NCBI GenBank assembly: GCA_024698685.1
Contig: JAILQZ010000056.1
Coordinates: 1-34,250 of the forward strand
Direction of reading: 5' to 3'
DNA length: 34,250 nucleotides
DNA from: a bacterium
Lineage (GTDB): Bacteria > Actinomycetota > Coriobacteriia > Coriobacteriales > CADBOM01
A program made the position numbers and the translations under genes. A model generated the notes under the pieces. The model was given only the letters and a program-made list of their open reading frames with translations, did no database searches and was not told the DNA's origin. Each line of letters begins with the position of its first letter. Positions within the stretch are counted from its first letter, which is position 1. Shown piece by piece: positions 14,507-27,833 of this stretch.

Positions 14507-15856
14507 ATGCTGCGCAAGCTACGCTGGACCTTCATCGGCATCATGATGGCGCTGCTCGCCGTCGTCATGGTCGCCGTCATCATCATCTTCGACATCAGCT
14601 CGTGCAACTCCGAGAAGCGCGAGATAGATGAGGCGCTCGCATCTGCGCTAGAGGCAGGCCCGGAGAGCATGGGACTGCCCTCGATAGGCTACTATGACCT
14701 CGATGATTTCGACGACCTCGATGATTTCGACGATCTCGACGATACCTCTCGCACGCCACCCGAGCCTCCTGAGGGGAAGGGCAACAATGGCAATCGCGGC
14801 GATGGCAGCCGCGGATTCTCAGGTTCGGTTCCGGTCTACTGCGTCAATGTCGATCGCGAAGGCAACATCCTCTTCACGAGCAGCACTGCGCGCATGGACT
14901 CCACAACGCTCAGCGACGGCATAGCGCAGGTGATGGCGCAGCCCAACGCCAAAGGCGAGCTTGCGGAACTCGAGCTGTTCTATGCTTCCGAGAAGACCCC
15001 CAACGGCTATCGCATCGCGTTCGCGGATGCTTCGAAATACCATGACAACGTGCGTCAGACCGTGCTCGTCTCGGTGGGCGTCGGTGCCGGCGCGCTGGCC
15101 ATCCTCTTCATCATCAGCCTTATATTGGCGAAGATCGCAACGCGCCCGGTAGAGGAGGCGTGGAGCAAGCAACAGCGCTTCATCGCCGACGCATCGCATG
15201 AGCTCAAGACCCCGCTGACCGTGATTCTCGCGGACAACGGGATCGTTGCATCGCATCCCGAGTCCACCGTTGCCGAGCAGATGCAGTGGGTCGAGGGGAT
15301 CAACGAGGAGGCCACCAAGATGAAGGGGCTGGTCTCGGACCTTCTGCTGCTTGCTCAGACCGAGCCGGGGGCTATAGCCGAGGACGAGCGGGCTAGCAGG
15401 ATCGAGCGCATCGATCTGTCGACCAGGGTGGAGGAGAGCATCCTCGAGTTCGAGGCCGTGGCCTTCGAGAGCGGCGTGGAGATCGAGGGCAACATCGCGG
15501 AGGGCATCGAGATAGATGGAAGATCGGACGACATCACGCGGCTAGTAGCGATACTTCTCGACAACGCGTGCAAGTACGCTCGCTCGACTATCTGCGTGGA
15601 CCTGCGCAGCGAGGGGGCGCAGGTGGTGCTGACCGTCAACAACGATGGAGATCCGATTGCAAATGAGGATCTGCCGCACCTGTTCGACCGCTTCTACCGC
15701 GCGGACAAGGCGCGCTCGGATGAGAAGCCGGGGTTCGGCCTGGGGCTTTCGATAGCGAAGAACATCGCGGAGGGTCACGGCGGCGAGATCTCGGCGGAGA
15801 GCTCCGAGGCAGTTGGCACCACTTTCACCGTCAAGCTGCCTATTGCGCGCGGATAG
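14507..15856 (+). CDS. Sensor histidine kinase with Asp-rich extracytoplasmic segment
   Basis: A membrane histidine kinase (449 aa). TM1 is at about 9-29 and TM2 at about 186-210; the loop between them is outside the cell. That loop contains DLDD/FDD repeats at about residues 64-79, then a Pro/Gly/Asn/Arg-rich stretch and a short sensor fold. The cytoplasmic part has a HisKA dimerisation domain with H231 (ADASHELKTPLT) and an ATPase domain with N box (LLDNACKYA), G1 (NNDGDPI), F (LFDRFYRAD) and G2 (GFGLGLSIAKNI). The organisation is EnvZ/CpxA-like. The ligand is unknown; metal ions, cationic peptides or wall stress are guesses from the acidic loop. Confidence 0.95.
   Translation: MLRKLRWTFIGIMMALLAVVMVAVIIIFDISSCNSEKREIDEALASALEAGPESMGLPSIGYYDLDDFDDLDDFDDLDDTSRTPPEPPEGKGNNGNRGDGSRGFSGSVPVYCVNVDREGNILFTSSTARMDSTTLSDGIAQVMAQPNAKGELAELELFYASEKTPNGYRIAFADASKYHDNVRQTVLVSVGVGAGALAILFIISLILAKIATRPVEEAWSKQQRFIADASHELKTPLTVILADNGIVASHPESTVAEQMQWVEGINEEATKMKGLVSDLLLLAQTEPGAIAEDERASRIERIDLSTRVEESILEFEAVAFESGVEIEGNIAEGIEIDGRSDDITRLVAILLDNACKYARSTICVDLRSEGAQVVLTVNNDGDPIANEDLPHLFDRFYRADKARSDEKPGFGLGLSIAKNIAEGHGGEISAESSEAVGTTFTVKLPIARG
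14696..14743 (+). repeat. 18-bp tandem repeat in the kinase sensor region
   Basis: Two perfect copies of an 18-base unit (14696-14713 and 14714-14731, GACCTCGATGATTTCGAC) are followed by a 12-base partial copy with two changes. Each encodes D-L-D-D-F-D in frame, so copy number could vary without a frameshift. Confidence 0.85.
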
Positions 15857-16875: not shown

Positions 16876-18402
16876 CTATGCGGACGGCGTTCCGTCCAAG
16901 TTCTCCCCGTGCGCCAGGGCGCAGCCAACCAGGCGTCCGAAGCACACGCTTCTACCATGGCTGCTTCCAGGGCATGTGACTGGGTAGGAGTTGGCCCAGT
17001 AGTCGCCCTGCACGTTGCCAACGGCATAGAGGCCGGCGATGGGTTCGTCGTCTTCGGTGCAAACCTGGGAGTTGTCATCGACGTGCAGGCCATAGGGGAG
17101 CGTGAGCAGCCATGCGCTGATCTTGGTAGCGTAGAACGGCCCGCGCCTGCAAGGGGAGAGGAAGCGTTCGGGCACTCCGAAGTCCACATCCTCGCCCGCA
17201 TCGACGAGCTCGTTGTAGCGCGCCACGGTCGCCTCGAGGTTACCCGCTGGGACTCCTATCGCCTCTGCCAGCTCGGCAAGCGAACCCGCGCGCACGTATT
17301 CGCCGCTTTCCACGCACGTCTCGACTTGCTCGGCTACGTTATCTGGCAGGGCGGAGAACTTGTCCGGCTCCTGCTTGCGGAAGTGCTCGAGGTAGTCTGC
17401 GTCCCAGATTGTCCAAGCGATGTTGCCGGGCGCGTTGAGACGCGCGTTGGTCACCATCGGCTCGAAGGCGGTCTCGTTCATGAAACGCCTTCCGTAGCGG
17501 TCGACGATCAGCCAGCTCGAAGCCATTCCAGGGCCGAGCACGCTGAGGTTGACTGGGTGGATGATCGGCGCCGGATAGCAGCGCGAGAAGGCTGCGTCAA
17601 CCCATTTGCCCATCACCAGTCCGTCGCCCATGTTGCCGCCCTTGGGGAAGTTCTCGACCTTGTCGACGCGCAGCGAGATGGGGCAGAAGCACTCCTTCAT
17701 CTCGTCATTGTCGGTGATTCCGCCAGTTGCGAGGATCACGCCACGTCGCGCGTTTATGCGGATGAAGCCGTCCTCTCCGCGAGCGATAACCCCCGTTATA
17801 CGACCATTTTCCTTGATGAGCTGCTCGGCTGGGGTATTGAAGAGGAACCTCGCTCCGCGCTCCAGCGCATCTGCGAAGACCACGTCCACAAGATAGGCTG
17901 CACCCCAGCGCTGGGGAGGCAGGTCGGAACCCTCGGGAATGTCGAAGAGGTGGGCCGTGCGGAACATGCGGTACTTCTCCTCGAGATCGTACCAATCGGC
18001 GCGCGCGGTGAGCCGCGAGTTTATCCTAACCGTGTATCCGCGGGCCTCCGCCATGCGCACGTAGTGCGAAAGCACCTCGCCGCTGCGGTCGGCCCAGATG
18101 CGGATGAGGTTGTAGTTGGCCTGTTGCTGGCTCCAGCCGTAGATGAGTCGCGCGGCCTCGAGCGGGTCGATGTGCACGCCCTCTCGCTTCTGGACGATAG
18201 AGTTGATCGCGCCGACGTCGGAGCCGTGCGCGGTGGGCTTGCCGAACTTCTCGATGCAGATGACGCTAGCTCCCGACTCCACCGCCGATTGCGTGGCGAC
18301 GCAGCCCGCGATGCCCGCTCCAACCACTACGATGTCGACGGTTTCCTCGGCAGCGAACTCGGTTATCGGTTCGGGTTGCTGCTGCCAGATATGCACTCCC
18401 AT
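16876..18402 (-). CDS. FAD-dependent reductase, fumarate-reductase-flavoprotein-like (paralogue 1)
   Basis: A soluble flavoprotein (508 aa) of the FAD_binding_2 superfamily that includes fumarate, urocanate and steroid reductases/dehydrogenases. The dinucleotide-binding motif VVVGAGIAGCVATQSAVESGASVICIEK is near residue 30; GVILATGGI and the C-terminal GLYAVGNVQGDYWANSYPV with SSHGRSVCFGRLVG complete the FAD fold. There is no Tat or Sec signal and no heme or FMN-binding domain, unlike many Eggerthellaceae reductases. The start was set at MGVHIWQ because AAAGGAAACGC precedes it; an upstream in-frame ATG would overlap the neighbouring gene. It is roughly two-thirds identical by eye to the next gene upstream, from which it is separated by 28 bases. 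The substrate is unknown. Confidence 0.9.
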   Translation of the reverse strand: MGVHIWQQQPEPITEFAAEETVDIVVVGAGIAGCVATQSAVESGASVICIEKFGKPTAHGSDVGAINSIVQKREGVHIDPLEAARLIYGWSQQQANYNLIRIWADRSGEVLSHYVRMAEARGYTVRINSRLTARADWYDLEEKYRMFRTAHLFDIPEGSDLPPQRWGAAYLVDVVFADALERGARFLFNTPAEQLIKENGRITGVIARGEDGFIRINARRGVILATGGITDNDEMKECFCPISLRVDKVENFPKGGNMGDGLVMGKWVDAAFSRCYPAPIIHPVNLSVLGPGMASSWLIVDRYGRRFMNETAFEPMVTNARLNAPGNIAWTIWDADYLEHFRKQEPDKFSALPDNVAEQVETCVESGEYVRAGSLAELAEAIGVPAGNLEATVARYNELVDAGEDVDFGVPERFLSPCRRGPFYATKISAWLLTLPYGLHVDDNSQVCTEDDEPIAGLYAVGNVQGDYWANSYPVTCPGSSHGRSVCFGRLVGCALAHGENLDGTPSA

Positions 18403-18430
18403 GCGTTTCCTTTCAGTGGCTGGCGGCGCG

Positions 18431-19963
18431 CTATGCCGCCGGGGTTCCATCGATGTTCTCGCCCTTGGCGAGCGCCAGTCCAACCAGGCGTCCGAAGCAA
18501 AGCGCGCGACCGTGGTCGGCGCCAGGCATCGTCACCGGGTATGAGTTGGCGAAGAAGTCGCCCTGCACCGCTCCGACCGCATAGAGTCCGGGAATCGGGT
18601 CGTCGTTGGCGTCGCAGACCTGCGAATTGTCATCGACGCGCATGCCGTACAGCAGCGAGAGCATGACAGCGCTGATCTTCGAAGCATAGAACGGTCCGCG
18701 CTTGCAGGGGGAGAGGAAGCGCTCGGGAACGCCGAAGTCCTCGTCAACGCCGGAGTCGACGAGCTCGTTGTAGCGCGCTACGGTCGCCACGAGGTTGCCC
18801 GCGGGAACTCCGATCGCCTCAGCCAGCTCCTCGATGCTATCCGCGCGCTTGTATCTGCCCTTGGCCACGTTCTCTTCGACCTCTTCCAAGATGTCATCGG
18901 GCAGCGCGGCGTACTTGATGGGCTCCATTCTCTTGTAGTGCTCGAGGTAGTCGGAGTCCCAAATCGACCAGGCGACGTTGCCCGGGGCGCTGATGCGCGC
19001 GTTGGTGACGATGGGTTCCCACGCGGTCTCGTTGCAGAAGCGCTTGCCGTTGCGGTTGACCGCAAGCCAGCTCGAGTCCATGCCAGGCTTGAGCGCCGTG
19101 AAGCTCACAGGGTGGATCAGCGGGGCGGGAAAGCAGCGCGAGAAGGCCGCGCCCGCCCATGCGCACATAATGTGCCCGTCGCCGGCATTGCCTCCAACCG
19201 GGGTGTATGCGTTGCCGTCGGCGTACAGGGCCATCGGGCAGAAGCACTCGATCATCTCCTTGTTGTTGGTGATTCCGCCCGTGGCCATTATCACGCCATT
19301 GCGACCGGTTATGCGCTTGTAGCCGCCCTCGCCGTCGGAGACCGCCACGCCGACGACGCGCCCGTCCTCCTTGATCAGCTGTTCGGCAGGGGTGTTGAAG
19401 TAGAATTTCGCGCCGTGGGCGAGCGCGCTCTCGTAGATCACGCGCACTGCGTACACGACGTTGCGCAGCGGGCCATCGCTCTCGGGGGCGTTGGGATCGT
19501 TGAACACGTGCGCGGTGCGGAACATGCGGAAGCGGTCATCGAGAGTGTCCCAGTCGGCCCGCGCTGTGTGCTCGGTGTTCAGATGCACCGTGTACCCAGC
19601 TTCGCGCGCGATCTGCACGTAATGGCTCATAACCTCGCCCGAGCGCTCGGTGAAGGTGCGGATGAGCTGGTAGTTCGCCTGCTGCTGGCTCCACGCGTAG
19701 ATGAGGCGAGCGGCTTCGACGGGACTGATTTCGATGCCGGCCTCGCGTTGGAGGATCGAATCGATCGCGCCGATGTCCACGCCGTGGGCCGATGGCTGGT
19801 CGAACTTCTCGATGCAGATGACGCTCGCGCCCGATTCGGAGACCGACTGCGCAGCCGTGCAGCCTGCGATTCCAGCCCCGACGACCACTACGTCGGCGAC
19901 CTCCTCGCCGTTGAATTCGGTGATGGGCTCGGGTTTGCGCTGCCAAATGTGAACTTGGGACAT
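18431..19963 (-). CDS. FAD-dependent reductase, fumarate-reductase-flavoprotein-like (paralogue 2)
   Basis: A soluble FAD_binding_2 protein (510 aa), tandem paralogue of the gene downstream. It shares the unusual N-terminus VHIWQ-x2-PEPITEF, the Rossmann motif VVVGAGIAGCTAAQSVSESGASVICIEK, GVIMATGGI, ERFLSPC(K/R)RGPFYA and the end GENIDGTPAA. Differences cluster at about residues 150-180 (NDPNAPESDGPLRN versus IPEGSDLPPQRWG) and 255-275 in the substrate domain, suggesting different substrates or partners. GTAGGAGGAATA before the ATG fixes the start at MSQVHIW; the longer reading frame has no good ribosome site. It follows the VOC gene by 53 bases and is probably co-transcribed with it. The absence of export signals points to a cytosolic reaction. 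Confidence 0.9.
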   Translation of the reverse strand: MSQVHIWQRKPEPITEFNGEEVADVVVVGAGIAGCTAAQSVSESGASVICIEKFDQPSAHGVDIGAIDSILQREAGIEISPVEAARLIYAWSQQQANYQLIRTFTERSGEVMSHYVQIAREAGYTVHLNTEHTARADWDTLDDRFRMFRTAHVFNDPNAPESDGPLRNVVYAVRVIYESALAHGAKFYFNTPAEQLIKEDGRVVGVAVSDGEGGYKRITGRNGVIMATGGITNNKEMIECFCPMALYADGNAYTPVGGNAGDGHIMCAWAGAAFSRCFPAPLIHPVSFTALKPGMDSSWLAVNRNGKRFCNETAWEPIVTNARISAPGNVAWSIWDSDYLEHYKRMEPIKYAALPDDILEEVEENVAKGRYKRADSIEELAEAIGVPAGNLVATVARYNELVDSGVDEDFGVPERFLSPCKRGPFYASKISAVMLSLLYGMRVDDNSQVCDANDDPIPGLYAVGAVQGDFFANSYPVTMPGADHGRALCFGRLVGLALAKGENIDGTPAA

Positions 19964-20016
19964 TATTCCTCCTACGCTGGGGTTTATTGCTTGATCGCTG
20001 CGCTGTGGAGTGCGGT

Positions 20017-20391
20017 TCAGCTCTGTTTGGGAGGCAGGATCTCGATCCACGTCTTGTCGGGATCCTCGATGAAGTAGAGGCCCATGTCGTGGTTCTCGAA
20101 CGCTATGCAGCCCATCTCCTCATGGAGCGCGTGGAATGCTTCGAAGTCATCGACCTCGAACGCGATATGCGTATCATCGCTGCCGTTGTCGTAGGGCTCG
20201 GTGCGCCCGCGGTTCCATGTGAGCTCGATTTCGAAGGGCGTCTCGTCGTTGAGCATGAAGGTGAGGCTCCACGAGGCATCCTCGGGTATGATCTCCCTCA
20301 CGACGCGGAATCCCAACGCCTTCTCGTAGAACGCGATCGAGGCCTCCTTGTCGAGGACATGGATGCAACGATGGATGAACTTCGCCTTCAT
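20017..20391 (-). CDS. VOC-family (glyoxalase/lactoylglutathione-lyase-like) metalloprotein
   Basis: A small vicinal-oxygen-chelate protein (124 aa) with two beta-alpha-beta-beta-beta modules. The first starts with FIHRCIHVLDKEASIAFYEKALGF and includes FEIELTWN; the second has DDTHIAFEVDDFEAFHALHEEMG and IEDPDKTWIEILPP. H8 or H11, E64, H83 and E119 (counted from MKAKF) are in the places where glyoxalase I type enzymes have metal ligands. The start at MKAKF has GAAAGGGG upstream; the longer frame runs through the promoter region. It is the first gene of the likely VOC-FAD-FAD-bioB operon. Whether it is a methylglyoxal lyase, an epimerase, or acts on the substrate of the reductases cannot be told. 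Confidence 0.88.
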   Translation of the reverse strand: MKAKFIHRCIHVLDKEASIAFYEKALGFRVVREIIPEDASWSLTFMLNDETPFEIELTWNRGRTEPYDNGSDDTHIAFEVDDFEAFHALHEEMGCIAFENHDMGLYFIEDPDKTWIEILPPKQS

Positions 20392-20604: not shown

Positions 20605-22014
20605 CTACTCCAGCGGCAGGCCTCCAGCAGCCTGGACTCCCGGAACTGCGGGAATCGTCGCAAAGCCGATCTCCAGCTCCTCGTCGGTGGGGATGTGGTT
20701 GATCATCGTGCCATCCTTGTGCGCCTCGTAGGCGGCCATGTCGAAGTATCCGGTGCCGGTCAGTCCGAAGAGGATGACCTTCTCCTCGCCGGTCTCCGCG
20801 CACTTCTTCGCTTCCTCCATGGCCACATAGATCGCATGCGCCGACTCGGGAGCGGGCAGAATCGTCTCGAGCTTAGCGAACTCCTCCGCCGCATCGAAGA
20901 CATCGGTTTGCCTGACCGCGACGGCCTCGAGGAACCCGTCGTGCTTGAGTTGCGAGATGATCGGGCTCATGCCGTGGTAGCGCAGCCCGCCTGCGTGGTC
21001 GGGGGAGGGAAGGAAGCCGTTTCCGAGCGTGTACATCTTGCACAGCGGGCAGGTCTGGCCGGTGTCTGCGAAGTCGTAGGCGAAGCGGCCGCGCGTGAGG
21101 CTCGGGCAGCTCGCGGGCTCAACCGCGATGAACTGCGTGTCGGGTTTGGTGCCGTTGAGCTTGTCGCGCATGAATGGGCTGATCAGCCCGCCGAGGTTGG
21201 AGCCTCCGCCAGCGCAGCCGATGACGATGTCGGGATACTCGCCGAGCTGCTCGAGCGCGGTGTAGGACTCGAGGCCGATCACCGACTGGTGCAGCAGCAC
21301 CTGATTGAGAACCGAACCGAGCTGATAGCGGCCCTTGTTATCGGGGACGTTGAGCGCGCGCTCGACTGCTTCCGAGATCGCGGTGCCGAGCGAACCAGAC
21401 GAATCCGGGTTCTCGGCAAGCATCTTCTTGCCGATCTCGGTGGTGTCCGAAGGCGATGGCGTGACGGTCGATCCGAAGGTCTGCATGATCGAGCGGCGGA
21501 ACGGCTTCTGCTCATAGGAGCACTTCACCATGAACACGTCGCACTCGAGGCCGAAGTGCGCGGCAGCCTCGGAGAGCGCGGTGCCCCACTGACCGGCTCC
21601 AGTCTCGGTGGTGATCGTCGTCAGGCCCTGCTCGGCGCCGTAATAGGCCTGCGCGAGCGCGGAATTGAGCTTGTGCGAGCCGGAGGTGTTGTTGCCCTCG
21701 AACTTGTAGTAGATCTTTGCAGGGGTACCGAGCGCCTTCTCGAGGTTGTACGCGCGGCAAAGCGGGGAGGGGCGATAGACCTTGTACATCTCGCGGACGC
21801 CATCGGGGATGTCGAAATACGCGGTGTCGTCGTCAAGCTCCTGGCGAACGAGCTCATCGCAGAACACCGGGGTTATATGCTCGAATTCGGCTACTACGCC
21901 ATTCGGGAGCCTCATCGGTGCGGGCTTCACGGGCATATCGGCGCGAACGTTATACCATTGCGTAGGAATCTGGTCTTCGTTCAGATAGATACGATACGGT
22001 TGCTTCTCTGCCAT
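20605..22014 (-). CDS. trpB2: TrpB2-type tryptophan synthase beta-like protein
   Basis: A fold-type II PLP enzyme (469 aa) of the TrpB2 group, which joins indole and serine (or phosphoserine in some) to make tryptophan without needing TrpA. RPSPLCRAYNLEKAL, then NNTSGSHKLNSALAQAYY with the PLP lysine K115, ITTETGAGQWGTALSEAAAHFG, YEQKPFRRSIMQTFG and VLNQVLLHQSVIGLE are TrpB2 signatures; GCAGGGSNLGG binds the PLP phosphate. It is longer than TrpB1, as expected. No trpA or other trp gene is adjacent. The long leader carries a T-box (22107-22380), so expression should rise when tRNA-Trp is uncharged. Indole salvage is the likely role, by inference. Confidence 0.93.
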   Translation of the reverse strand: MAEKQPYRIYLNEDQIPTQWYNVRADMPVKPAPMRLPNGVVAEFEHITPVFCDELVRQELDDDTAYFDIPDGVREMYKVYRPSPLCRAYNLEKALGTPAKIYYKFEGNNTSGSHKLNSALAQAYYGAEQGLTTITTETGAGQWGTALSEAAAHFGLECDVFMVKCSYEQKPFRRSIMQTFGSTVTPSPSDTTEIGKKMLAENPDSSGSLGTAISEAVERALNVPDNKGRYQLGSVLNQVLLHQSVIGLESYTALEQLGEYPDIVIGCAGGGSNLGGLISPFMRDKLNGTKPDTQFIAVEPASCPSLTRGRFAYDFADTGQTCPLCKMYTLGNGFLPSPDHAGGLRYHGMSPIISQLKHDGFLEAVAVRQTDVFDAAEEFAKLETILPAPESAHAIYVAMEEAKKCAETGEEKVILFGLTGTGYFDMAAYEAHKDGTMINHIPTDEELEIGFATIPAVPGVQAAGGLPLE

Positions 22015-22414: not shown

Positions 22415-22600
22415 CAAGAAAATAATGAACGGTCAAAAAGTTTTTGGGGATAATCTTTCGCTTAAGAGGCATTTGAAGGGGAATTTACGCCCTTAGCGGC
22501 GGGTTTGTTGGCTACACTAGCAATAGGGAATTCGTACCGCTCGCCCTTGGTGAACGGTTTTCAACCTTGTGAACGATCTCCAAAAAACAGGAGGAATGCC

Positions 22601-24580
22601 ATGAAGTACAAGGCCTTGTTCGAACCTGTGAAGTTCGGGAAGCTCGAGCTGCCCAACCGCTTCGCGATGTGCGCAATGGGACCAATCGGCCTCGGTGACG
22701 CACAGGGAGGATTCAACCAGCGCGGTGTCGACTACTACGTCGAGCGCGCCAAGGGAGGCACTGGCCTGATCATCACCGGCGTCAACCATGCGGACAACGA
22801 GTTCGAGCACCACGAGGTGCCGTCGACTCCGTCTCCGACGATCAACCCGCCGTACTTCATCCGCACGACGCGCGAGATGACCGAGCGCATCCATGCCTAC
22901 GGTTCCCTGATCTTCCTGCAGATATCCGCGGGATTCGGCCGCGTGTTCGCCGAGTTCCCCGAAGGCGACCTTCCGGTTTCGGCCTCGCCGACGATGAACC
23001 GATTCTTCGACGTGCGCTGCCGTCCGCTCGAGCGCCACGAGATCCACAGCATCGTGCGCAAGATGGGCGAGGCTGCGGCAACCGCCAAGAAGGCCGGCTT
23101 CGATGGTGTCCAGATCCATGCGGTCCACGAGGGCTACCTGCTCGACCAGTTCGCGATTTCCTTTTTCAACCAGCGCACCGACGAATATGGCGGCTCGCTC
23201 GAGAATCGCCTGCGCTTCGCGCGCGAAGTGGTCGAGGAGATCAAGCGGGTCTGCGGGCAGGATTACCATGTTTCGCTGCGCTACTCGCCTAAGAGCTTCA
23301 TCAAGGATTGGCGCGTCGGCGGTCTGCCGGGCGAGGAGTTCGAGGAGAAGGGCCGCGATGTCGAGGAAGGCGTCGAGGCGGCCAAGCTGCTGGCGAGCTA
23401 TGGCTACGACAGCCTCGATGTCGACGTCGGCTGCTACGACGCGTGGTATTGGAACCATCCGCCGATGTACCAGGAGAAGGGCCTCTACCGCAAGTACGCG
23501 AAGTTGATCAAGGACGCAGTCGACGTGCCCGTTATCTGCGCTGGGCGCATGGATGACCCCGACATGGCGCTCGAGGCGATCGAGAACGGCACCTGCGACG
23601 TAATCGGGCTCGCCCGCCCGCTCCTCGCCGACCCGGACTACGTCAACAAGCTGCGCGCCGACGATGTCGAGGGGATCCGCCCGTGCCTGAGCTGCCATGA
23701 GGGCTGCCTCGGCCGCATGGTCCACTACAAGCGCATCAACTGCGCGGTCAACCCCACGTGCGCACGCGAGCGCTACACGCGCCTCGTGCCCACCTGCACC
23801 CCCAAGCGCGTGCTGATCGCCGGCGGTGGCCCTGCTGGCATGGAGGCTGCTCGCGTCCTCAAGATCCGTGGCCACGAGCCTGTTCTATGCGAGGCGTCCG
23901 GCAAGCTCGGAGGCAATCTCATTCCCGGTGGCGTGCCCGATTTCAAGGAAGACGACCATCATCTGATCAGGTGGTACGAGGGCCAGCTGAGGCGCCTTGG
24001 CGTTGAGGTTCGCCTGAACACCAAGGTCGATGCGTCGATGGCCGAGGGCTTCGATAACGTGATCGTCGCGACGGGCTCGAGGCCGAAGCGCTTCCCGCTC
24101 GGAGACGCGCAGGTCAGCGTTGCCGAGGAGGTCCTCAACGGGCAGGTCGAGCTTGGCAGCGACGTCTCGATCATCGGCGGCGGTCTCGTCGGCTGCGAGC
24201 TCGCGCTGTGGCTGGCCAACGAGGGCAAGGGCGTCACGATCGTCGAGCAGCTCGAAGATATCCTCGCGCTCAATGGCCCGCTATGCCCCGCCAATTTCGA
24301 GATGCTGCGAGCGCTGCTCGACTTCAAGGGCGTGCGCATCATCTGCAGCGCGACGGCCAAAGGCTACGAGGGCGGTTCGCTGATCGTCGGAACCGCCGAT
24401 GGCGACATCGAGGTCAAGGCGGACAACGTCGTCGAATGCGTCGGCTACACGTCGAACAGCGAGCTCTATGAGGAGCTGCGCTACGGCAAGGCGAAGGTGA
24501 ACAAGATCGGCGATTCGCGCGGCGTCGCGAACATCATGAACGCGATCTGGGACGCATACGAGCTGGCGAGCACGATCTAG
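22601..24580 (+). CDS. OYE-family FMN/FAD/[4Fe-4S] reductase (2,4-dienoyl-CoA reductase / BaiCD / daidzein-reductase type)
   Basis: A large NADH-dependent ene-reductase (659 aa). The N-terminal old-yellow-enzyme barrel (1-350) binds FMN and carries the variant active-site stretch IHAVHEGYLLDQF (H173, H176, Y179), followed by RTDEYGGSLENRLRF. A [4Fe-4S] site is C362-x2-C365-x3-C369-x11-C381. The C-terminal half has two Rossmann motifs: FAD (LIAGGGPAGMEAARVL, about 408) and NAD(P)H (SIIGGGLVGCELALWL, about 526). This layout is shared by FadH, BaiCD/BaiH and the coriobacterial daidzein reductase. The VHEG form of the active site is, from memory, the bile-acid/steroid/isoflavone-reductase-like branch. 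AGGAGGAATGCC fixes the start at 22601; an upstream in-frame start at 22505 lacks this. It stands alone, divergent from trpB2. The substrate is unknown. Confidence 0.92.
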   Translation: MKYKALFEPVKFGKLELPNRFAMCAMGPIGLGDAQGGFNQRGVDYYVERAKGGTGLIITGVNHADNEFEHHEVPSTPSPTINPPYFIRTTREMTERIHAYGSLIFLQISAGFGRVFAEFPEGDLPVSASPTMNRFFDVRCRPLERHEIHSIVRKMGEAAATAKKAGFDGVQIHAVHEGYLLDQFAISFFNQRTDEYGGSLENRLRFAREVVEEIKRVCGQDYHVSLRYSPKSFIKDWRVGGLPGEEFEEKGRDVEEGVEAAKLLASYGYDSLDVDVGCYDAWYWNHPPMYQEKGLYRKYAKLIKDAVDVPVICAGRMDDPDMALEAIENGTCDVIGLARPLLADPDYVNKLRADDVEGIRPCLSCHEGCLGRMVHYKRINCAVNPTCARERYTRLVPTCTPKRVLIAGGGPAGMEAARVLKIRGHEPVLCEASGKLGGNLIPGGVPDFKEDDHHLIRWYEGQLRRLGVEVRLNTKVDASMAEGFDNVIVATGSRPKRFPLGDAQVSVAEEVLNGQVELGSDVSIIGGGLVGCELALWLANEGKGVTIVEQLEDILALNGPLCPANFEMLRALLDFKGVRIICSATAKGYEGGSLIVGTADGDIEVKADNVVECVGYTSNSELYEELRYGKAKVNKIGDSRGVANIMNAIWDAYELASTI

Positions 24581-24650: not shown

Positions 24651-27600
24651 TCACTCGGAGTCGATCGTCGAGACCCCTATCGTCAGCTCTTCGAGAACGT
24701 CGAGGACCATCCGCACCGTGTCGAGCGAGGTGAGCATCGTGGTGCCATTCTGTGCGGCGCAGCGGCGGATGGCCACGCCGTCTCCGTAGTGCACGCCGCT
24801 CAGGATCGCGCGCGTGTTGATAACGTAGCTCACGTATCCGGCGCGTATCGAATCGAGCACCTCCTCGCTGTTCTCGCTTGGCTTGTGCCGTATGCGCGTG
24901 CGGATCCCGTGCTCCCTCAGCACCTCTCCCGTTAGCGACGTGGCCTCGATGTTGAATCCCATGTTGTAGAATCTCCTGACCAGCGGGACTGTCTCCTCCT
25001 TGTCCTCATCGGCCACGCTGACCAGCACCGTGCCGTAGTTGGGCAGCGAGAGCCCGGCGGCGATCATCGCCTTGTAGGCCGCCCTGTGCAGCTTCCTGTC
25101 GTAGCCGATCGCCTCGCCAGTCGACTTCATCTCCGGCGACAGGTAGGCATCCATGCCCTGCAGCTTGGAGAACGAGAACGCGGGTACCTTCACGTAGTAG
25201 CGATTCTTCTCGGCGGGGTAGCGCACGGCGATGCCCTGCTCCTCCAAGGAGATGCCGAGCATGGCCAGCGTACCGATATCGGCAAGCGAGTAGCCGGTCG
25301 CCTTGGAGAGGAAGGGCACCGTGCGCGAGGAGCGGGGATTGACCTCGATTACGTAGACCCTCTCCTCGCTGTCGACTATGAATTGGATGTTGAGGAGGCC
25401 GACGATCCCGATGCCCAGTCCGAGCCTCTCGGTGTAGTCGAGCACCGTCCGCTTGACCTTCTCGGAGAGGCTGTACGGGGGATATACGCTGATCGAGTCA
25501 CCCGAATGGATGCCCGTCCTCTCGACGAGTTCCATGATTCCAGGCACGAAGACGCGTTGCCCGTCGCAGACCGCATCGACCTCCACCTCCTTGCCGCGGA
25601 TGTATTTGTCGACCAGAACGGGTTTGTCCTCATCGACCGCAACCGCGGTCTTGAGGTAGTCCCACATCGACTCCTCCTTGGCCACTATCTGCATAGCGCG
25701 GCCGCCCAGCACGAAGCTCGGGCGGACGAGCACTGGGTAGCCGATCCTACCAGCGGCCTCGATGCCCGCCTCCACGCTCGTGACCGCCTCGCCCCGAGGC
25801 TGCGGGATTCCGAGCTCGAGCAGCAGCTTCTCGAAGGAATCGCGGTTCTCGGCGCGGTCGATCGCCTCGCAGTCCGTTCCGATGATCCTCACCCCGCGCT
25901 TCTTGAGCGGCTCTGCCAGGTTGATCGCCGTCTGCCCGCCAAGCGTCACGATCACGCCCTCGGGCTGCTCCAGATCGATGATGTTCATCACGTCCTCGGG
26001 GTACAGCGGCTCGAAGTAGAGCTTGTCGGAGCAGGTGTAGTCGGTCGATACCGTCTCTGGGTTGTTGTTGATCAGGATCGCCTCGTAGCCTGAGCGCTGG
26101 ATTGTCTGGATCGCGTGGACCGTCGAGTAGTCGAACTCCACGCCCTGGCCGATGCGGATCGGGCCGGAACCGAGGACGATGATCTTTCGCTTGTCGGAGA
26201 CGATCGATTCGTTGTCATCCTCGTAGGTGGAGTAGAAGTAGGGGATGTAGCTGTCGAACTCGGAGGCACAGGAGTCGATCATCTTGTAGACGGGGATGAT
26301 CCCGCTCTCCTTGCGGAAGGCGGTGACTTCCAGCTCCTCGGTCTTCCACAGCAGCGCGACCTCCCTGTCCGAGAAGCCGAGCCTTTTGGCCTCCCTCAGC
26401 GCATCGGGGTCGAACGGGCGCGCCTTGACCTCCTCCTCCGCCTGCGTGATACGCCGGATTCCTCGTAGGAAGAAGCGGTCGATCCCGGTTATCTCGGCGA
26501 CTGCGTCTACGTCGCAGCCGCGCCAGAAGAGCTCCGAAATGGCGAAGATGCGGTCGTCGGTGCCGATCTTCACGTAGTCGATCAGCTCTTGCGTTCCCAT
26601 CTCGTCGAATTTAGTCATGTAGATGTGGAATGTGCCGATCTCCAGCGAGCGGATTCCCTTGAGCAGGCTCTCCTCGAATGTTCGCCCGATGCTCATGACC
26701 TCGCCGGTCGCCTTCATCTGCGTGGATAGCGAGTTGTTGGCATCTGCAAACTTGTCGAAGGGGAAGCGCGGCAGCTTGGTGACTACGTAGTCGAGCGCAG
26801 GCTCGAAAGACGCTGGAGTGTTGGCTAGCGGTATCTCGTCGAGCGTCATGCCCACGCCGATCTTCGCGGATACGCGCGCGATGGGGTAGCCGCTCGCTTT
26901 GGATGCCAGCGCCGAGGAGCGGGAGACGCGTGGATTGACCTCGATCAGGTAGTACTGGAGGGAGTTGGGGTCGAGCGCGAATTGCACGTTGCAGCCACCT
27001 TCGATCTTCAGCGCGCGGATGATCTTGAGCGCACTGTCGCGAAGCATGTGGTATTCCTTGTTGGTCAGCGTCTGGGAGGGGCAAACGACGATCGAGTCGC
27101 CCGTGTGGATGCCGACAGGATCGAGGTTCTCCATGTTGCAGACCGTGATCGCTGTGTCGTTGGCATCGCGCATGACCTCGTATTCGATCTCTTTGAAGCC
27201 CTTGACGCTCTTCTCGACGAGCACCTGGCCCACCGGTGAAAGTTCGAGCGCGTTCTTCATCATCGGCACGAGCTCCTCGGGGGTGTCGACGAAGCCTCCG
27301 CCAGTGCCGCCGAGGGTGAACGCGGGGCGCAGCACGACGGGATAGCCTATTCGCTGTGCAACCTCGAGGCCATCTTCGATGGTCGAGGCGATCTCCGAAG
27401 GCAGGATGGGTTCTCCGAGGCTCTCGCAGAGATGCTTGAACTTGTCGCGATCCTCCGCTTGCTCGATCGACTCGCGGCGCGTCCCCAGCAGTTCCACGCG
27501 GCATTCCGCGAGAACGCCCTTCTTCTCCAGCTGAATCGCGAGGTTGAGGCCGATTTGCCCACCGATGTTGGGGAGGATGGCGTCTGGCCGCTCGTAGCGG

Positions 27601-27833
27601 ATGATCTTCGCGACGTACTCGAGGGTCAGCGGCTCCATGTATACCTTGTCTGCAATCGACCCGTCGGTCATGATCGTGGCGGGGTTGGAGTTGCAGAGCA
27701 CCACCTCGTAGCCCTCCTCCTTGAGCGCTAGGCAGGCCTGCGCGCCCGAGTAGTCGAATTCGGCAGCCTGCCCGATAACGATGGGGCCGGAGCCTATCAC
27801 GAGGATCTTGTGGATGTCGGTTCTCTTAGGCAT
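24651..27833 (-). CDS. carB: Carbamoyl-phosphate synthase, large subunit
   Basis: The large subunit (1060 aa) makes carbamoyl phosphate from bicarbonate, ammonia and two ATP, for pyrimidines and arginine. It has the expected internal duplication: the first ATP-grasp half starts with IGSGPIVIGQAAEFDYSGAQA and the second, near residue 550, with VLGSGPIRIGQGVEFDYSTVHA. Each is followed by its NSNPATIMTD / NNNPETVSTD segment. The C-terminal 130 residues are the allosteric MGS-like domain, normally the site of UMP and ornithine control. Length is normal. Its ATG overlaps the end of carA by eight bases (ATGCCTAA), so translation is coupled. Confidence 0.98.
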   Translation of the reverse strand: MPKRTDIHKILVIGSGPIVIGQAAEFDYSGAQACLALKEEGYEVVLCNSNPATIMTDGSIADKVYMEPLTLEYVAKIIRYERPDAILPNIGGQIGLNLAIQLEKKGVLAECRVELLGTRRESIEQAEDRDKFKHLCESLGEPILPSEIASTIEDGLEVAQRIGYPVVLRPAFTLGGTGGGFVDTPEELVPMMKNALELSPVGQVLVEKSVKGFKEIEYEVMRDANDTAITVCNMENLDPVGIHTGDSIVVCPSQTLTNKEYHMLRDSALKIIRALKIEGGCNVQFALDPNSLQYYLIEVNPRVSRSSALASKASGYPIARVSAKIGVGMTLDEIPLANTPASFEPALDYVVTKLPRFPFDKFADANNSLSTQMKATGEVMSIGRTFEESLLKGIRSLEIGTFHIYMTKFDEMGTQELIDYVKIGTDDRIFAISELFWRGCDVDAVAEITGIDRFFLRGIRRITQAEEEVKARPFDPDALREAKRLGFSDREVALLWKTEELEVTAFRKESGIIPVYKMIDSCASEFDSYIPYFYSTYEDDNESIVSDKRKIIVLGSGPIRIGQGVEFDYSTVHAIQTIQRSGYEAILINNNPETVSTDYTCSDKLYFEPLYPEDVMNIIDLEQPEGVIVTLGGQTAINLAEPLKKRGVRIIGTDCEAIDRAENRDSFEKLLLELGIPQPRGEAVTSVEAGIEAAGRIGYPVLVRPSFVLGGRAMQIVAKEESMWDYLKTAVAVDEDKPVLVDKYIRGKEVEVDAVCDGQRVFVPGIMELVERTGIHSGDSISVYPPYSLSEKVKRTVLDYTERLGLGIGIVGLLNIQFIVDSEERVYVIEVNPRSSRTVPFLSKATGYSLADIGTLAMLGISLEEQGIAVRYPAEKNRYYVKVPAFSFSKLQGMDAYLSPEMKSTGEAIGYDRKLHRAAYKAMIAAGLSLPNYGTVLVSVADEDKEETVPLVRRFYNMGFNIEATSLTGEVLREHGIRTRIRHKPSENSEEVLDSIRAGYVSYVINTRAILSGVHYGDGVAIRRCAAQNGTTMLTSLDTVRMVLDVLEELTIGVSTIDSE

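Follow-up and report, generated by a model that had tools for sequence, protein, structure and literature searches.

The reductase locus

The DNA analysed here (the window; 34,250 nucleotides from a member of the Coriobacteriales) carries a gene for a 659-residue flavoprotein on its forward strand. The upstream neighbour, encoding a PLP-dependent enzyme (20605-22014), is divergent, and the downstream neighbour, carB (24651-27833), is convergent. The reductase gene is thus a single-gene unit, which bears out an earlier description as monocistronic that was made from the letters of the DNA (the sequence-only reading). A scan for promoters and terminators gives nothing convincing at the gene, and Rfam and tRNA searches return no matches. 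The features of the locus, all on the forward strand, are as follows.

22601..24580, +: coding sequence of the FldZ-type 2-enoate reductase, ATG start, 659 amino acids (open reading frame, ribosome binding site and FldZ clade)
22590..22595, +: ribosome binding site GGAGGA (direct reading)
22616..23656, +: FMN-binding TIM barrel, Oxidored_FMN, residues 6-352 (Pfam, 6e-62; fold matches 1ps9 and 6qkg)
23114..23152, +: active-site strand IHAVHEGYLLDQF, residues 172-184 (alignment)
23282..23338, +: residues 228-246, a loop of 19 residues (other families have 5-6)
23435..23464, +: YDAWYWNHPP, residues 279-288, replacing the His252 region of FadH (alignment)
23684..23743, +: [4Fe-4S] ligands C362, C365, C369 and C381 (sequence; spacing as in FadH and FldZ)
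23807..23920, +: FAD-binding motif region, residues 403-440 (Pfam Pyr_redox_2 / NAD_binding_8)
24161..24250, +: NAD(H)-binding motif region, residues 521-550, ending in VTIVEQ (Pfam Pyr_redox / DAO)

The nearest metagenome-assembled genome, RGIG5709 from sheep duodenum, is syntenic with the window and shares 88% DNA identity over 7.8 kb. Over codons 1-464 the two reductase genes differ by 109 synonymous and 6 nonsynonymous changes (dN/dS 0.013). This ratio reflects very strong purifying selection on that part of the gene and, together with the Pfam E-value of the barrel, places the reality of the gene far beyond chance. The sheep copy (L016, 825-2787) is broken by a frameshift near codon 465, which is either an assembly error or decay. 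The host of the window is a gut bacterium, probably of ruminant origin.

Domain architecture and structure model

Pfam matches and motifs confirm the earlier assignment to the OYE-type Fe-S ene-reductases, with FMN, 4Fe-4S and FAD-NAD modules in one chain. The strand IHAVHEGYLLDQF, the four cysteines (C-x2-C-x3-C-x11-C) and the two dinucleotide-binding motifs (GGGPAG and GGGLVG) all lie where that reading had placed them, and the Pyr_redox_2 match extends over residues 403-626 (2e-25). In alignments, Y179 corresponds to Tyr166 of FadH, which is a catalytic residue (PMC12238238), and Y279 corresponds to FadH His252. The acidic residue in VTIVEQ suggests that NADH may be the cofactor.

An AlphaFold model of the protein (mean pLDDT 75, pTM 0.76) is poor in the active-site loops. 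It matches 2-naphthoyl-CoA reductase (NCR) and FadH over the full length with TM scores of 0.81-0.84. By both sequence score and fold E-value, the nearest solved structure is NCR (6qkg). However, NCR is only 27% identical to the window protein, acts on an aryl-CoA rather than a free acid, and lacks in alignment the clade signatures described below. No 2-enoate reductase is among the solved-structure matches listed.

Relationship to characterized reductases

The reference set for phylogeny consists of E. coli FadH, FldZ, daidzein reductases from equol clusters, and two proteins that exceed the NCBIfam cut-off for BaiCD. One of these two (L203) stands alone; the other (L202) adjoins SDR-like genes and a second OYE gene, and is possibly not a true BaiCD but a steroid reductase. 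Daidzein reductases were found with a published degenerate primer (PMC9164157) and confirmed by the racemase, ETF, THDR and DHDR genes of equol clusters. These equol-type clusters occur in six Coriobacteriia genomes (L204-L208, L210), where a small membrane-like protein is encoded between DHDR and DZNR. A match on a Lactococcus garvieae plasmid was dropped as a daidzein reductase, as it lies near optrA and erm(A) without equol genes. This full-length Fe-S OYE-type gene (L170, 8995-10965) is two genes away from optrA.

FldZ of the type described from Clostridium sporogenes (GenBank AMQ78444; PMC5882074) was located in three genomes with the published forward primer PM003 (PMC5882074), once exactly and twice with one mismatch. 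The FldZ-like open reading frame downstream of each site is exactly 665 amino acids long, which is the published length. The reverse primer PM008 has no match in the stretches around the PM003 hits, so the identification of FldZ rests on PM003, on the length of 665 and on an upstream MerR-like gene.

FldZ and the clostridial enoate reductases share their domain order and Fe-S spacing with the window protein. Between that protein and FldZ, identity is 55% over the whole length and rises to 64% in the FMN barrel. It falls to 42% around the Fe-S cluster region, and the gene neighbourhood is different. Identities to other families are lower: 33-35% to BaiCD, 31-34% to daidzein reductase, 28% to FadH and at most 34% to the OYE paralogues recovered from the same genome. 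FldZ itself is about 34-39% identical to BaiCD-type proteins.

In a 77-row mixture-model tree, the window protein and FldZ fall in a clade of 36 rows (SH-aLRT 100). This clade contains a 21-row subclade (SH-aLRT 98) and is apart from FadH, BaiCD, DZNR and the paralogues of the window's own genome. A 31-row tree recovers a 15-row clade of FldZ and the window protein with UFBoot/SH-aLRT values of 100/100. The BaiH-like neighbour at L202:8473-10536, which is not a characterized BaiH, has a long branch and is not part of the FldZ clade.

FadH, the 2,4-dienoyl-CoA reductase of fatty-acid metabolism, acts on a CoA ester and has the same domain order, Fe-S spacing, catalytic tyrosine and fold as the window protein (TM 0.84 to 1ps9). 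A role of this kind is nonetheless extremely improbable: identity is low, His252 is replaced by Tyr279, and an AU test rejects a clade of the window subclade with FadH (p-AU 5e-79). The earlier view that the protein is not FadH therefore holds.

The same reading had drawn the protein nearer to the bile-acid, steroid and isoflavone reductases. BaiCD / steroid 5beta-reductase (NF041087) indeed has the same three-domain architecture and is the best curated NCBIfam match. Daidzein reductases (DZNR/dzr) share the architecture as well, and they occur in the same bacterial order as the host. Yet the BaiCD match reaches 391 bits where the profile requires 825, and a function taken from this top match was dropped for that reason. 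Profiles for the bilirubin reductase BilR also fall short (NF045592, 181 bits, cut-off 425; NF045599, 371 bits, cut-off 750). AU tests reject joint clades of the window protein with BaiCD (p-AU 2e-6) and with BaiCD plus DZNR (p-AU 8e-63), and the phylogeny groups it with FldZ instead. Neighbours typical of the bai operon are absent beside the PLP enzyme and carB, and an equol cluster is absent from the window. Reduction of a bile-acid, steroid or isoflavone enone is thus very improbable, and the proposed kinship does not stand.

A single-chain architecture of about 665 residues, monophyly with FldZ, and shared derived features are all found, as expected for FldZ-type 2-enoate reductases (EC 1.3.1.31). 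The window protein is almost certainly a member of this family. It is a new and otherwise ordinary member that resides in an unusual host.

Signatures of the FldZ clade

Three signatures, defined in the present analysis rather than taken from the literature, distinguish the FldZ clade, and the window protein carries all of them. An extra residue, E177, creates an HEGY insertion in the active-site strand of 36 of 36 clade members and of none of the 41 other proteins. The loop that follows the RYS strand has 19 residues in all 36 members, compared to 5-6 in all 41 others, and is a candidate site for binding the substrate carboxylate. The motif Y-D-x-W-x-W-x-H-P-P occurs in 34 of 36 members and 0 of 41 others. 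FldZ displays the insertion, the long loop and the tryptophan-containing motif, whereas BaiCD-family proteins have a short loop and a strand that reads HAGHGY or HMAHNY, and the daidzein reductases have HAACGVL.

VHEG had previously been taken as a mark of bile-acid, steroid and isoflavone kinship. Because HEGY with its extra residue is exclusive to the FldZ clade, the inference is reversed, and the motif marks 2-enoate reductases. These signatures separate 2-enoate reductases from the bile-acid and isoflavone reductases, which a best-match reading (BaiCD) would confuse. Within the barrel, the window subclade has about 50 fixed positions at which FldZ carries a different residue.

Expected substrate and reaction

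Since the window protein belongs to the FldZ clade and carries HEGY, its expected substrate is a cinnamate-like alpha,beta-unsaturated carboxylate. It had been suggested that the enzyme could reduce a diet- or host-derived enone. A diet-derived substrate is still probable, but the tree and the motif point to an unsaturated carboxylate in place of a steroid or isoflavone enone. A cinnamate-type substrate is reasonably likely. With somewhat similar confidence, we favour a cytoplasmic, NADH-dependent FldZ-family 2-enoate reductase that converts free cinnamate-type acids to phenylpropionates and acts as an electron sink together with demethylases and dehydroxylases. The enzyme is probably sensitive to oxygen.

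The side-chain double bond of p-coumarate, ferulate or caffeate would be hydrogenated in this reaction. By analogy with FadH and FldZ, electrons would pass from NADH to FAD, to the [4Fe-4S] cluster and then to FMN. Hydride transfer from the reduced FMN would occur at the beta carbon, and the alpha carbon would be protonated by Tyr179. Physiologically, the enzyme may provide a plant-phenolic electron sink that operates alongside corrinoid O-demethylases and Mo-dependent dehydroxylases.

FldZ supplied with NADH reduces cinnamate (100%), p-coumarate (43%) and caffeate (0.8%), does not reduce aliphatic enoates, and also reduces nitroalkenes (PMC5882074). This last activity, the isolated position of the gene and the many OYE paralogues would suit a broad-specificity ene- or nitro-reductase that detoxifies compounds or balances redox without a dedicated metabolic substrate. 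Such a role is improbable given the low dN/dS over codons 1-464, the finding of a sole FldZ-type copy in the genome, and the ties of related genes to specific catabolic cassettes.

Gene contexts of orthologues

Orthologues are patchily distributed, with at least 16 among 400 Coriobacteriia genomes and at least 27 among 399 Bacillota genomes. These counts are lower bounds, as few candidates per genome were scored. The most informative contexts are found at three loci, L073-L075 (genomes G168, G181 and G219, the last being Adlercreutzia faecimuris), which represent two genera and encode proteins 71-73% identical to the window protein. Here the orthologue is grouped with URO-D methyltransferase genes and a gene for a B12-binding corrinoid protein; G168 additionally encodes a RACo activase at this locus. 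The orthologues adjoin a soluble-type Mo oxidoreductase and an Fe-S protein, and a membrane-LuxR-like regulator is encoded nearby. This Mo enzyme has no TAT signal and has a small 4Fe-4S partner, and in both respects it is similar to the soluble catechol dehydroxylases of Gordonibacter (PMC7028382).

In G328, a congener of G168, the Mo locus is present but the cassette is absent, which is consistent with joint gain and loss of the reductase and demethylase genes. The demethylase/dehydroxylase context is restricted to 3 of the 16 Coriobacteriia orthologue loci, and in three genomes the dehydroxylase is present where the orthologue was not detected. Both findings count against the favoured reading, as does the isolated position of the gene in the window genome. 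The nearest homologue, in G234, has transporter-like genes as its context instead. Transporter-like genes are found at L072, and a Bacillota locus (L092) carries TetR-like and then MFS-like genes.

Other members of the FldZ clade have different neighbours, which were named by reading their sequences. In Ca. Dichloromethanomonas (L088), Thermoanaerobacter and another Bacillota (L087, L098), the clade genes adjoin aconitase-X-like genes. The L088 locus also includes urocanate-hydratase-like, LarA-like, cyclodeaminase-like and glutamate-mutase-like genes. A cluster in Flavonifractor sp. AGMB03687 (L086) encodes oxopentenoate-hydratase-like, tautomerase-like, HpaI-aldolase-like and CoA-transferase-like proteins, which is odd for an anaerobe.

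The contexts at L087, L088 and L098 suggest other 2-enoate substrates. The window protein might reduce a free 2-enoate other than a plant phenylpropanoid, such as an aliphatic enoate, one of the urocanate or indoleacrylate type, or a dicarboxylic enoate derived from amino-acid or ring-cleavage metabolism. The variety of clade contexts, L086 included, and the broader substrate range of 2-enoate reductases from non-proteolytic clostridia (PMC5882074) are consistent with this proposal. It is unlikely, however, in that the members at L086-L088 and L098 are 47-54% identical to the window protein and fall outside its subclade, and the nearest orthologues with informative context point to methoxylated and hydroxylated aromatics.

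A possible route from ferulate to 3-hydroxyphenylpropionate

Hydroxycinnamates are abundant plant phenolics that are quickly hydrogenated by gut and rumen communities. Human faecal communities convert ferulate to 3-hydroxyphenylpropionate by hydrogenation, demethylation and dehydroxylation, and the converters are, according to the authors, largely distinct from the bran degraders (PMC4949515). Rumen phenolic acids likewise undergo reduction and dehydroxylation (PMC12828550). No Coriobacteriia enzyme for hydroxycinnamate hydrogenation was found in the literature searched.

The gene set of the A. faecimuris-like loci fits the three activities of the ferulate route one to one. The FldZ placement and the neighbours of the orthologues define a concrete, testable set of genes for this three-step route. 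Given that FldZ hardly reduces caffeate, activity on ferulate or caffeate would imply a putative shift in specificity; the roughly 50 barrel differences also imply that substrates may differ from those of FldZ. We tentatively propose, at somewhat less than even odds, that the Coriobacteriia subclade consists of hydroxycinnamate reductases whose specificity has shifted from that of FldZ towards ring-substituted substrates (ferulate, caffeate). Adlercreutzia-like bacteria would then encode the whole conversion of ferulate to 3-hydroxyphenylpropionate in a single cluster, consisting of the reductase, a corrinoid/URO-D O-demethylase cassette and an adjacent Mo dehydroxylase, while the related parts would be scattered in the window bacterium. 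The ferulate pathway as such is possible but similarly doubtful.

Related enzymes in the same genome

In the genome of the window bacterium (1.78 Mb, 94% complete), Oxidored_FMN accounts for 28 matched stretches, or about 26 genes; molybdopterin oxidoreductases give 22 matches and URO-D proteins 8. This expansion of reductive enzymes is strong for such a small genome. Contig 87 encodes an 85% orthologue of the Mo oxidoreductase that adjoins the cassette orthologues, and the same second Mo gene lies next to it. A search of approximately 264 kb of stretches from this genome (overlaps included), which represent part of the whole, returned no relative of the corrinoid protein encoded in the cassette.

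On its reverse strand, the window encodes at 16876-19963 a pair of adjacent fumarate-reductase-like flavoproteins (FAD_binding_2; 508 and 510 amino acids) with similar N-terminal sequences. A gene for a 124-residue glyoxalase-fold protein lies upstream of the pair. An equol-type interpretation of these VOC and FAD_binding_2 proteins (16876-20391) was set aside, since they lack the order of an equol cluster and lie on the other strand. Elsewhere in the window, a histidine-kinase gene contains an 18-bp tandem repeat (14696-14743) that encodes an acidic DLDDFDD repeat.
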